A DNA stretch of 64,000 nucleotides. Origin: an uncultured Lactobacillus sp. (GTDB taxonomy: Bacteria > Bacillota > Bacilli > Lactobacillales > Lactobacillaceae). A model generated the notes under the pieces. That model was not told where the DNA came from and ran no database searches. It saw only the letters and a program-made list of their open reading frames with translations. Positions within the stretch are counted from its first letter, which is position 1, and every line of letters begins with the position of its first letter. Below, one piece after another: positions 11,400 through 32,605 of the stretch. The stretch covers positions 1 to 64,000 of the forward strand of contig NZ_CARBVX010000004.1 in the NCBI RefSeq assembly GCF_948948975.1. The letters are read 5' to 3'. The position numbers and the translations under genes were made by a program.

Positions 11400-11529
11400 T
11401 ATATTTTTCCCTTCTTTGTTTCATTTACTGTCGTCTGCACTAGTATTCTGATATTCCAAATAGGAGTAATCACATTGACCAGCTCCTACAGTTTAAGGGC
11501 TTAGCCAGCCCCGTTATCATTTATCTTTT
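11400..11529 (-). ncRNA. Probable omega-RNA / right end of the tnpB element
   Basis: The region just 3' of tnpB, on the same strand, folds into two clear hairpins: GGGCT/AGCCC (11497-11501 with 11507-11511) and TAGGAG/CTCCTA (11461-11466 with 11483-11488). TnpB proteins use an RNA that overlaps the 3' end of their gene and the element right end, with the guide beyond the end. The position and folding fit, but the exact right end and guide cannot be placed without a second copy. Confidence 0.5.
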
Positions 11530-29720: not shown

Positions 29721-30455
29721 TTAATACTCTGAAGCACCAGAACTTGTATCAGTTTCTTCTTGCTTCTTTTCCACATGCTCTTCATGCTTAGATGCACCAG
29801 TTCCCGTATCAACTTCATCTCTCTTATAAGTTGCACCAGTGGTAGCATCCGGATCATCTACTAGCTTTTGACCAGTAGTTTCACAGAAGTACTTCACAAA
29901 TGGATAAAGGTCTTGTACCCATTCATAAGTTCCCACGTAATTTCCTTCGTCATCTTCAATTCGCTTATAATCATGCAAAATTAATTTATGACGATTGCCA
30001 TTAGGAACTGGCATTTTTACCTCATCATGCCCATCTACCTTGTTTCTTAAAGCATAAATAACTTTCTTGGCTTCAGGAATAACATTACGAATATCTGGAT
30101 GCACAGCGCCCATTGTATCACCAACTTGATCTGGTGTACGTTTAGCTAACATTTTCTTATTTGGATCAGTCGGTCTGTTGTACCACAAAAATTGATTATT
30201 ATCGTCTACATAAGTTAATTCACCAAATGCACGACGAAGCATCCAATTAATTTGGTTAACAGTAAGAAGTCCTGCATCCAATTTTACATAATCGTCTCCT
30301 TCAGCTGCATTTACTTTTTTAGCAGCTTTATTTAACCAATCTGGATCATTTTTATCTACACCTTCGACCGTGTAGCGTGATTTACCAGTAGCATCAAAAT
30401 CCTCTTTAATATAATCTTCTTCTTTTAAGTCTTGTAACCATTTAGGTTCTGCCAT
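29721..30455 (-). CDS. PAS-domain protein (DUF438-type PAS) with repeated GAS tail motifs
   Basis: This 244-aa soluble protein is paralogous to the gene at 20070. Residues of about 50-200 resemble the PAS domain of DUF438 proteins, including ELTYVDDNNQFLWYN, the conserved VHP and GTYEWVQDLYPFVKYF. Both paralogues share YVKL(D/N)AGL before the PAS domain and TGQKLVDD after it. The C-terminus carries DTGTGASK and DTSSGASEY, two versions of a motif found once in the paralogue. There is no output domain, so it probably signals by protein contact or is a ligand carrier. It is single, with its own terminator. Confidence 0.72.
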   Translation of the reverse strand: MAEPKWLQDLKEEDYIKEDFDATGKSRYTVEGVDKNDPDWLNKAAKKVNAAEGDDYVKLDAGLLTVNQINWMLRRAFGELTYVDDNNQFLWYNRPTDPNKKMLAKRTPDQVGDTMGAVHPDIRNVIPEAKKVIYALRNKVDGHDEVKMPVPNGNRHKLILHDYKRIEDDEGNYVGTYEWVQDLYPFVKYFCETTGQKLVDDPDATTGATYKRDEVDTGTGASKHEEHVEKKQEETDTSSGASEY

Positions 30456-30599
30456 TTTACTTCACCTCATAAATCTACGTCTCTTCAACTTGATTATACC
30501 CACTAACGAAAGGGCTTGCAATGCTTATATGCAGTATTTTATATATAAAGTTGGCATAATATATATTTATGGAATATAATTTATTTTTAAAATTAGATG

Positions 30600-30628
30600 T
30601 TGACTAAAAGTAAGTTATACGATAATAT
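30600..30628 (+). promoter_or_regulatory. Promoter of the cysteine leader and cystine transporter
   Basis: TTGACT-17-TAATAT is a near-consensus promoter that places the transcript start about 20 bases before the leader ORF. Confidence 0.75.
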
Positions 30629-30652
30629 AACTTGTGAAAAGTAAGAAAGGAG

Positions 30653-30740
30653 CTAATGAGTATGTTTAATGTACGTCAAGCAAATTCTTGTTGTTGTAAT
30701 TGTCAAAAAATTTGGCAATTATTTGGCGTACAGTCATTAG
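30653..30740 (+). promoter_or_regulatory. Foldable leader element around the Cys codons
   Basis: Three nested complementary pairs close on each other: CTAATGA (30653-30659) with TCATTAG (30734-30740), GTACGTCAA (30671-30679) with TTGGCGTAC (30723-30731, one G-U pair), and AATTGTC (30698-30704) with GGCAATT (30714-30720, one G-U pair). The Cys codons at 30689-30703 lie inside. A ribosome paused there would disrupt the inner stem and free the 3' arms, so translation speed can alter the fold. Confidence 0.65.
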
Positions 30741-30772
30741 TTCATTCAAGAATTTCTCTAGTTAGAAACTAG
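30656..30772 (+). CDS. Cysteine-rich leader peptide upstream of the cystine transporter
   Basis: This 38-codon ORF has a strong AAAGGAG site ending four bases before its ATG. Residues 11-17 read SCCCNCQ, with Cys codons 12, 13, 14 and 16 all TGT. The ORF ends at TAG 30770-30772. About 30 bases later an intrinsic terminator (30803-30837) ends just before the start of the cystine symporter gene. A run of codons for the amino acid handled by the downstream gene is the hallmark of an attenuation leader. The peptide itself likely has no function after release; a second ATG two codons later is also possible. Confidence 0.8.
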   Translation: MSMFNVRQANSCCCNCQKIWQLFGVQSLVHSRISLVRN

Positions 30773-30802
30773 CTTTTCAAAGTTATAACTATGGTTTTTC
30801 TC

Positions 30803-30837
30803 AAGAGCTGTTGGCATTAGGCCAATGGCTCTTTTTT
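30803..30837 (+). terminator. Attenuator-type intrinsic terminator before the cystine transporter
   Basis: A 13-bp stem with two G-U pairs (30803-30815 with 30821-30833) and a five-base loop is followed by TTTTTT. It lies between the leader ORF and the transporter start at 30865, on the same transcript, so read-through must be conditional. Confidence 0.85.
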
Positions 30838-30864
30838 GTTTGCTTAGAATTGGAGTTGAATAAA

Positions 30865-32253
30865 GTGCAAACTACTCTCGTTGTTTTAGTAGCCATCGCG
30901 ATTCTCGCTGGTATGGCTTACTTACACAAAAAGAATTGGGGATTTACTAAATTAGTATTCCTCTCACTTATCATCGGAATTATTTTTGGTGTTTCTATTC
31001 AATTAATGTTCGGTGCTAATAGTAATATTGTAAAAAATAGTATCGACTGGATTTCCATTGTTGGAGATGGCTATGTTTCCTTACTACAAATGCTAGTAAT
31101 TCCTCTAATCTTTGTTTCTTTAGTGGGGGCCTTCACTCAACTAAAAATGACTACTAAGATTAGAAAAATTGCTACCAGTGTTTTAGCTATTTTATTAGGA
31201 ACTACAGCTGTTGCTTCCTTCTTAGGTTTCAGTAGTGTAGCTATTTTTAATTTAGGTGGGGCTGGCTTTGCTAAAGGAATGTCTGCATCCTCCACTGCTC
31301 TTACCTCTATTAAAGATCATCAAGCTCAATTAAAAGGCTTGACCCTTCCTCAACAAATAACATCCTTCTTCCCACAAAATATTTTTGCAGATTTTGCTGG
31401 AATGCGCTCAACTAGCACAATTGCAGTAGTAATTTTCTCTATTTTTGTCGGAATTGCCTTCTTACAAGTTAAGAAAGAAAAAGCAGATGTAGCTGCTACA
31501 TTTGCACGCGGTATTCAAGCCTTACGTGCAGTTATCATGCGCATAGTTAAGATTGTACTTGAACTCACTCCTTATGGAATTTTTGCTTTAATTGCTAGAA
31601 CTACTGCAACTAACAGTTTTGCAACAATGAGTAAACTACTAGTCTTTATCGTTGCTGCTTACCTTGCAATTGCTGTTATGTTCATTGTTCATGCAGTTCT
31701 ACTTTTAATTAACGGAATTAATCCAATCACCTACTTCAAGAAGGCATGGCCTGTCTTAGTCTTTGCTTTCACTTCTAGAACTAGTGGCGGTAGCTTGCCA
31801 CTTAATGTACGTACTCAACGTGAATCAATGGGAGTAAGTGATACGATTGCAGACTTTGCCGCTAGCTTTGGTTTAACTATTGGTCAAAATGGATGTGCAG
31901 GTCTTTATCCATCAATGGTAGCAGCAATCACTGCCCCACTTGTTGGAGTTAACATTTTCTCATGGCAATTTGTTTTAAGTTTAGTTGTAATTGACGTTAT
32001 TTCTAGTTTCGGCGTTGCCGGTGTTGGTGGCGGCGCTACATTTACCACGTTAATGGTCTTAGGTGCTCTTAACTTACCAGTAACAGTTTTAGGTGTTTTA
32101 ATTGCTATTGACCCAGTTGTTGATATGGCTAGAACTGCCCTTAATGTTAACGACTCAATGGTTGCTGGTGTTATTACTGCTAAGCGTACCGGAGAACTAA
32201 ACTGGGATACTTTTAATAATGAAAAATCTGATGTAGATGCTGAAGTTGAATAG
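30865..32253 (+). CDS. tcyP: L-cystine symporter (TcyP-like, cation:dicarboxylate symporter family)
   Basis: This protein of about 462 aa has eight transmembrane helices and the re-entrant loop motifs of the glutamate/DAACS fold, for example SRTSGGSLPLNVRTQ and FGLTIGQNGCAGLYPSM. The closest family is TcyP, which imports cystine. The GTG at 30865 is chosen because TTGGAG lies nine bases upstream; the frame is open back to 30811 but that part overlaps the terminator hairpin. The Cys-rich leader and terminator upstream suggest induction when cysteine is scarce, which agrees with the predicted substrate. Confidence 0.85.
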   Translation: MQTTLVVLVAIAILAGMAYLHKKNWGFTKLVFLSLIIGIIFGVSIQLMFGANSNIVKNSIDWISIVGDGYVSLLQMLVIPLIFVSLVGAFTQLKMTTKIRKIATSVLAILLGTTAVASFLGFSSVAIFNLGGAGFAKGMSASSTALTSIKDHQAQLKGLTLPQQITSFFPQNIFADFAGMRSTSTIAVVIFSIFVGIAFLQVKKEKADVAATFARGIQALRAVIMRIVKIVLELTPYGIFALIARTTATNSFATMSKLLVFIVAAYLAIAVMFIVHAVLLLINGINPITYFKKAWPVLVFAFTSRTSGGSLPLNVRTQRESMGVSDTIADFAASFGLTIGQNGCAGLYPSMVAAITAPLVGVNIFSWQFVLSLVVIDVISSFGVAGVGGGATFTTLMVLGALNLPVTVLGVLIAIDPVVDMARTALNVNDSMVAGVITAKRTGELNWDTFNNEKSDVDAEVE

Positions 32254-32304: not shown

Positions 32305-32605
32305 CAACAAAATTAATTAAAGCTTAGAAAAGATGAGTAATTACTTAAGGCATCCCCAGAGAGTCGGATTAGGTGCAAGCCGATGTTGCTGATGTAATGA
32401 AGATGGTCTTGGAGCTAAATTAAAGTGCAAGCTAATTTAAGTAAGCAATTTACGATTGACGTTCGTTACCATGTCCGAGTCTTCCAAATGTTGGAGTACT
32501 TAGTGAGGAATTAATTGTAAGATTAATTCGAATGCAGGGTGGTAACACGCTATTAAGCGTCCCTAGTGTAGTGTAATAACTATACTTGGGGCGCTTTTTC
32601 TTTTG
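32305..32605 (+). ncRNA. T-box riboswitch leader, probably tRNA-Met specific
   Basis: The leader has the Stem I AG-bulge and distal loop (AGAGAGTCGG...GTGCAAGCCGAT near 32358-32385), the T-box core AGGGTGGTAACACGC (32536-32550) and a terminator whose stem starts at GCGTCCCT (32557) and ends in GGGGCGC plus a T-run. The specifier is read from the 3' side of Stem I, where GAAGATGGTC (ATG at 32403-32405) is the best candidate; ATG at 32397 is the alternative. Either gives Met, which agrees with the downstream MetE-like and LuxS genes. Uncharged tRNA would promote read-through. Confidence 0.88.

Follow-up and report, generated by a model that had tools for sequence, protein, structure and literature searches.

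Attenuators of the trp/his type combine tandem codons of the regulated amino acid with alternative hairpins and an intrinsic terminator, while T-box leaders (RF00230) achieve antitermination set by tRNA charging by binding the tRNA directly, with no need for translation. For cysteine, polycysteine attenuators of mycobacteria, with leaderless ORFs, were reportedly studied by experiment (Canestrari 2020, as its title indicates). The principle of ribosome-mediated attenuation has been outlined (PMC9413887), and Firmicutes are described as having histidine leader attenuators that exchange with T-boxes (PMC9413887, PMC2965389), with a leucine-rich attenuator peptide in S. aureus (PMC5794164); these histidine and leucine leaders are of the same kind as the one analysed here, but do not stand before cysteine genes. 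Leader peptides with Cys codons have been predicted for cys operons of Mycobacterium and Propionibacterium acnes and for cbs of Bifidobacterium longum (PMC1262725). Like our leader, these actinobacterial examples precede cysteine genes and are short ORFs in which Cys codons occur in runs, whereas for the mycobacterial ones that paper reports no conserved terminator hairpins (PMC1262725). The uORFC-8-2 motif before cysS of Rhodobacterales, a predicted Cys-codon leader with an intrinsic terminator (PMC8632094), is set apart by its description, namely an alphaproteobacterial host, two tandem Cys codons and a cysteinyl-tRNA synthetase gene.

Here we analysed a window, by which we mean the whole 64 kb stretch of Lactobacillus DNA, containing a leader that resembles trp/his attenuators in its tandem codons, alternative hairpins and terminator and differs from them in having cysteine codons, an importer gene and a host from the Lactobacillaceae. 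Based on its sequence and that of its relatives, we consider it highly probable that this leader, which stands before a TcyP-like gene, responds to cysteine supply as a ribosome-mediated transcription attenuator. Leader attenuators are classical and their Cys-codon versions are already in print; what appears to be new is such a leader in Lactobacillaceae, since none was found described among the top-listed papers of the open-licence PMC literature. T-box leaders were found before some orthologues of the transporter gene and are absent at the leader of the window.

The leader region (30600-30864) lies between a divergent PAS-domain gene (29721-30455, minus strand) and a symporter gene of the SDF family on the plus strand. 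Because the upstream gene is divergent, a plus-strand terminator in this region acts on a transcript started between the two genes. The features of the locus are as follows.

30600..30628, plus strand: likely promoter TTGACT-17-TAATAT of the leader transcript, 9/12 matches
30646..30652, plus strand: Shine-Dalgarno (SD) sequence AAAGGAG of the leader, invariant across 13 aligned leaders, its 3' part within region 1
30650..30743, plus strand: predicted hairpin 1:2, the default state; the outer stem covers the SD end and the start, with the Cys codons inside
30662..30772, plus strand: leader ORF MFNVRQANSCCCNCQKIWQLFGVQSLVHSRISLVRN, stop codon at 30770-30772, alternative start ATG at 30656
30689..30703, plus strand: putative sensor codons TGT TGT TGT AAT TGT (Cys Cys Cys Asn Cys), with only synonymous change in aligned relatives
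30733..30743, plus strand: region 2, with two possible pairing partners, the SD/start region and the 5' arm of the terminator
30749..30801, plus strand: middle hairpin lying inside the antiterminator and poorly conserved in L009 and L010
30803..30833, plus strand: intrinsic terminator 3:4, 13 pairs and then a U run, 31 nt 5' of the GTG start
30805..30815, plus strand: region 3, the 5' arm of the terminator, which can also pair with region 2
30852..30855, plus strand: SD sequence GGAG of the transporter gene, read from sequence
30865..32253, plus strand: TcyP-like L-cystine transporter gene of the SDF family with a GTG start (PF00375, E 1.4e-95)

By sequence, the symporter is an SDF-family protein and appears to be of the TcyP type, being a close homologue of proteins annotated as TcyP; several homologues carry the annotation L-cystine transporter/TcyP and others that of dicarboxylate symporter, these names being annotation. 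The NCBIfam cystine models gave no match to the symporter, and the importer presumably carries cystine at this locus. The divergent gene (29721-30455, minus strand) encodes a PAS domain (PF13596, E 6.8e-20), and a comparable neighbour was seen in L030.

The preliminary description of this DNA had proposed a well-started ORF of 38 codons. The ORF is indeed present (30656-30772), although its start is better placed at the ATG at 30662, giving MFNVRQANSCCCNCQ..., because the SD spacing is then 9 nt instead of 3 nt and because the first ATG is absent from L009 and L010, which begin MFVRQ. The start at 30662 is common to the leader type of the window, L009 and L010 included. Its Cys codons lie at 30689, 30692, 30695 and 30701. 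When both strands of the window are scanned under a tighter SD rule, no other short ORF behind an SD has 3 Cys in 6 codons, and a looser rule gives three further such places. At the locus, codons for the amino acid concerned are clustered in a short leader ORF preceded by an SD.

We aligned 13 leaders, of which 12 are distinct, and in all of them CCCNC is kept, with exchanges between TGT and TGC only. This leader type has named members in L. johnsonii, L. hominis and L. taiwanensis. Relative to the window, the codons 3' of the Cys cluster are out of frame in L004, owing to one inserted base, and in L005-L008, owing to another. As judged from the alignment, the Cys codons are conserved as codons, and the C-terminus of the leader peptide is free. 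The preliminary description had named loss of the Cys codons in relatives beside a retained stem as an outcome against its reading; the comparison gave the opposite.

The first half of the peptide, MF(N)VRQ..CCCNCQ, is kept in window-type leaders, as would be expected if the leader were a functional Cys-rich micropeptide that binds metals or thiols, or an arrest peptide sensing something other than Cys-tRNA, such as redox state or metal. We regard such a peptide function as very improbable, since the insertions in L004 and L005-L008 shift the frame behind the Cys cluster, and since leaders of other genera have no obvious similarity beyond their Cys clusters and yet are followed by the same gene and a terminator. 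Moreover, the VRQ codons form half of the inner RNA stem (GTACGTCAA), which can explain why VRQ is kept. Conservation of the Cys codons as codons is in line with the attenuator reading.

Codons for CCCNCQ were matched in 12 of 251 genomes of the family, 7 of them from the genus of the window and 5 from others. The five matches outside the genus were ruled out as leaders; they lie inside or against long unrelated ORFs. The pattern of the window's leader occurs in 33 stretches of genome contigs, six of them from Lactobacillus; the remaining 27, in scattered taxa, are presumed to be chance matches. Left out were L024-L029, L091-L097, L100, L101 and L121 as repeats of genomes already counted, L041, L045, L055, L060 and L067 because their contigs match aligned ones in length (for L041, exactly or nearly), and eleven distant paralogue loci (L012-L022, 24-29% identity).

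The leader RNA is predicted to be strongly folded (30635-30845: -63.8 kcal/mol, against -40.9 +/- 3.9 kcal/mol for shuffled sequences; z -5.85; reached by 0/200 shuffles). The nested stems that the preliminary description had drawn around the Cys codons at 30653-30740 were recovered as a hairpin at 30650-30743, and the 13-bp terminator that it had placed before the tcyP-like start was found again at 30803-30833, its 13 pairs followed by a U run. To mimic a ribosome on the Cys codons at a time when the 3' arm of the terminator is not yet made, the RNA was folded from 30701 or 30716 to the 5' arm of the terminator; 30733-30743 then paired with 30805-30815. Region 2 also lies in the 3' arm of the SD-covering hairpin, so 1:2 excludes 2:3. 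The pairings 1:2 and 2:3, and likewise 2:3 and 3:4, are mutually exclusive, giving the geometry of a classical attenuator. Ribosome-mediated attenuation by cysteine had been suggested from the layout before, and the comparison supports that reading, although the pairing on which it turns, 2:3, had gone unnamed.

The preliminary description had also asked for covarying stems. In the alignment, 2:3 is paired in 119/120 cells (12 distinct leaders of the 13). A G-C pair is replaced by A-U at 30740:30808, three further pairs are changed on one side, and the variation comes from two lineages. When the partner was shifted by 1 to 3 columns, 20-58% of cells remained paired, and 6/500 shuffles reached both the percentage paired and the covariation score. 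The number of 2:3 pairs changed on both sides was equalled by 150/500 shuffles and the number of pair types by 500/500. In the terminator 3:4, 98.7% of cells are paired and two pairs have changed on both sides, as reached by 14-16/500 shuffles, and the outer 1:2 stem loses its register in L009 and L010. Window-type leaders have an intrinsic terminator before the gene and a conserved antiterminator pairing that excludes it. In the window alone, the duplex energy of 2:3 is ordinary (p 0.13). In energy terms the terminator is a strong competitor of the antiterminator, so timing must matter.

We propose that transcription from the promoter at 30600 would yield the leader RNA. When Cys-tRNA is ample, the ribosome would pass CCCNC and region 2 quickly, 1:2 would re-form behind it, region 3 would pair with region 4, and transcription would stop before the transporter gene. 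When Cys-tRNA is scarce, the ribosome would stall at 30689-30703 and occupy the 5' strand of hairpin 1:2, leaving region 2 free to pair with region 3; no terminator would form, and the transporter would be made. Without translation, 1:2 and 3:4 are the default, so the switch would be off. The parts, the exclusive pairings 1:2, 2:3 and 3:4, the conserved Cys codons and 2:3 pairing and the recurrent leaders can be seen by comparison of predicted folds and aligned DNA; at this locus we infer stalling and read-through, the latter being presumably set by charged tRNA-Cys.

The promoter TTGACT-17-TAATAT had been part of the preliminary description. It has only 9/12 matches, and a competing promoter-like box, TTGGCA-18-TATAAT at 30551-30580, has 11/12. 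In a promoter scan of 3 kb, promoter-like sites were rarer than in shuffles (6 vs 10.3), so the scan by itself decides nothing. TTGAC(A/T) is kept at the 30600 position in L001-L010, not in L011, and also precedes those leaders of group g6, which we take to be Limosilactobacillus from the name borne by homologue P0020 (66% identity), whose upstream sequence was inspected; for these reasons the 30600 box is preferred. The sequence AAAAGTAAG occurs twice on the plus strand, at 30606-30614 between -35 and -10 and at 30637-30645 just 5' of the SD; its first copy is also found in several g6 leaders and may be an operator or a 5' UTR element.

Since TTGAC(A/T)AAAAGTAAG is common to the window's type and several of the inspected g6 leaders, the promoter, perhaps through this repeat, might itself respond to cysteine, with the terminator acting as a constant damper. 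This arrangement seems very unlikely to us, as it would account neither for the Cys codons and their recurrence nor for the conserved 2:3 pairing, and as the element is absent from L070, L081 and L084, which represent three other leader types with inspected upstream sequence. Attenuation through the Cys codons remains the preferred reading.

For a wider comparison we collected 62 upstream regions of transporter orthologues of up to 450 nt (L073 only 251 nt, at a contig end), 41 from Lactobacillaceae, the window included, and 21 from the same order but from four other families. Those 21 were drawn from 30 loci, 164/395 genomes matching, and 11/21 are of one genus. With a uniform rule (an SD, 5-70 codons and 3 Cys in 6 codons), 26/41 Lactobacillaceae regions were positive, 12 of the window's type and 14 with dissimilar ORFs, the latter being 14 of the 29 Lactobacillaceae regions not of that type; outside the family, an SD-led Cys-cluster ORF was found in 0/21 orthologue regions. 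As background, the rule found 7 such places in 486 kb taken from these loci, counting both strands and coding sequence, or 0.0065 expected per region. Many of the hits are close relatives, and by our reading they amount to about six to eight separate leader cases. MKMCCCIMSK (L011) and MKMCCCLISV represent one type; further leader peptides are MTNAIFTKSAACCACCANANM..., VNASQQFNPCCPCCAEMPTCYF... (TTG start), VFCLKAQQMMCCCQQ... (GTG start), MSAIQTNEMMCCCMMQATMC..., MNSKRMCCKPLTNDG...CFGCQC and MTKLNFKIQLACCCTCYML. Of 11 representatives, 10 have a terminator 105 to 168 nt 3' of the Cys codons, with energies between -14.5 and -33.7 kcal/mol.

By the rule, 15/41 Lactobacillaceae orthologues have no Cys leader. 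One of these, L127, does have a Cys leader by eye (MKSMMQAVECQCMCCEKSTHLF...), with a terminator, chosen later, of -9.4 kcal/mol; L088 has an ORF with CQCLFC without an SD and was left out of the count. Among the 14 others, T-box matches were found in L074 (57 bits), L077 (79.6) and L080 (103.5), the first two scoring below the Rfam cut-off, and L075 contains the T-box motif only. In L089 and L090, a Ref68/Lacto-3 RNA (RF02840, 78.1 bits) lies 5' of the transporter orthologue, at the site occupied by Cys leaders or T-boxes in other genera.

The T-boxes before some orthologues, together with the strong structure at the window (z -5.85), are what a metabolite riboswitch or a T-box-like RNA enclosing a chance ORF would predict. 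This is extremely improbable in our estimation. Rfam gave no family above cut-off at the leader, its two sub-threshold matches being at chance level, and the T-box model (RF00230) had no match at 30500-30900; in addition, folds differ among the leader types while SD-led Cys ORFs recur. The recurrence of these ORFs agrees with attenuation by a translating ribosome.

Antiterminator pairing in the other leader types was analysed in 11 representatives by comparing the duplex energy between the leader 3' of the Cys codons and the 5' arm of the terminator with dinucleotide shuffles. Values of p ranged from 0.003 to 0.92, with a combined p of 1.3e-4 over the 11 leaders, and own leader/arm pairs beat mismatched pairs (p 0.004). 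The strongest results were obtained for L070, L081 and L084; p was above 0.1 in 7/11 leaders, including L126 (p 0.77) and L127 (p 0.92), the last from a wrongly picked terminator and included as such in the combined p. In the MKMCCC type, the Cys-codon segment itself is predicted to pair with region 2. In L011 this segment reads GCUG, its second Cys codon being TGC; region 2 reads CAGC, and the terminator arm again GCUG. L082/L083 have GUUG, CAAC and GUUG at the corresponding places. This in-step change is one contrast among three sequences, found by eye; in L082 the predicted register is displaced by one codon, as is possible with repeated codons.

A stall-folding model predicted that sequestration of the terminator arm rises on stalling in 10/11 leaders, a rise not beyond a shuffled-arm null (combined p 0.16). 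The exception was L081, in which the predicted sequestration fell from 0.91 without a ribosome to 0.58 with a stalled one. With the ribosome at the stop codon, the arm was still sequestered in the model in several leaders (window 0.74, L082 0.77, L076 0.80, L084 0.87). Because shuffled arms do nearly as well and the arm stays sequestered at the stop codon, we do not count this model as support.

Cysteine-dependent expression has been reported for the plasmid operon cysK2-ctl1-cysE2 of L. paracasei FAM18149, which is up without cysteine (log2 2.9 to 3.2 in cysteine-deficient over methionine-deficient medium) (PMC6004538). Its 5' UTR has high read coverage; T-box leaders have similar coverage, for which RNase III fragmentation is named as a possible cause (PMC6004538). 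The operon is preceded by a Rho-independent terminator, AAGGGCGCGAAA-N16-TTTCGCGCCCTT, no T-box or S-box was found before it, and the consulted portion of that report leaves the 5' UTR mechanism unidentified (PMC6004538). A Cys leader before this operon was predicted in advance and then found in plasmid pBD-II of another L. paracasei strain, where an SD (GGAGG) and the leader MMSQSMFNAINCCCRTTRFWRCSAC lie 5' of the identical terminator motif; the leader was read in pBD-II, and the published expression is that of FAM18149.

The operon can sit on plasmids (PMC6200037), and our cysK set comprised 34 upstream regions, the best 30 of 65 places and 4 regions from plasmid records, with L130 and L133, of identical coordinates, apparently one record. 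Cys ORFs were found in 22/34 regions by the strict rule, and relaxing it to CC with three or more Cys gave 29/34; the chance expectations are 0.0044 and 0.0065. The stall model rose in only 7/29, so no antiterminator is claimed for this set. In an Enterococcus faecalis record the leader ORF is annotated as the hypothetical protein WP_002355203.1 (L132:1274-1411, NZ_CP143580.1), which probably serves as the Cys leader peptide of a cysteine synthase gene and has no separate function as a protein. In L134, L135, L137, L138 and L139, cysK-type genes of one genus (g21), the distance from leader terminator to gene is larger; L134, L135 and L139 have extra hairpin-like sequence, and some g21 leaders reach the limit of the 450 nt upstream region or fall outside it.

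Taken more broadly, we lean towards a cysteine attenuation regulon across the Lactobacillaceae, consisting of the TcyP-like importer and the mobile cysK-ctl-cysE operon. Its leaders would have arisen or been replaced several times on the same gene and swap with T-boxes, the terminator arm would imitate the leader SD or the Cys-codon segment, and the cysteine response of cysK-ctl-cysE would be explained. In L. paracasei, cysteine and methionine control has been assigned mainly to T-boxes, with one strongly cysteine-responsive operon left without a regulator in the available text (PMC6004538). Cys leaders before the importer and before this methionine-to-cysteine operon offer a concrete mechanism that is testable through codon changes, and they add cases of one gene carrying either a T-box or a leader peptide. 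The hosts are food and gut bacteria, and the operon bears on sulphur flavour in cheese (PMC6004538).

Two further RNA matches were seen in the window. A T-box leader at 32316-32567 (plus strand, 107.3 bits) lies 5' of a gene for B12-independent methionine synthase and luxS; the yxjH-luxS T-box of L. paracasei is described as methionine-specific (PMC6004538). A match to the Transposase-1 RNA (RF03014, 59 bits) is located at 11434-11491 on the minus strand.
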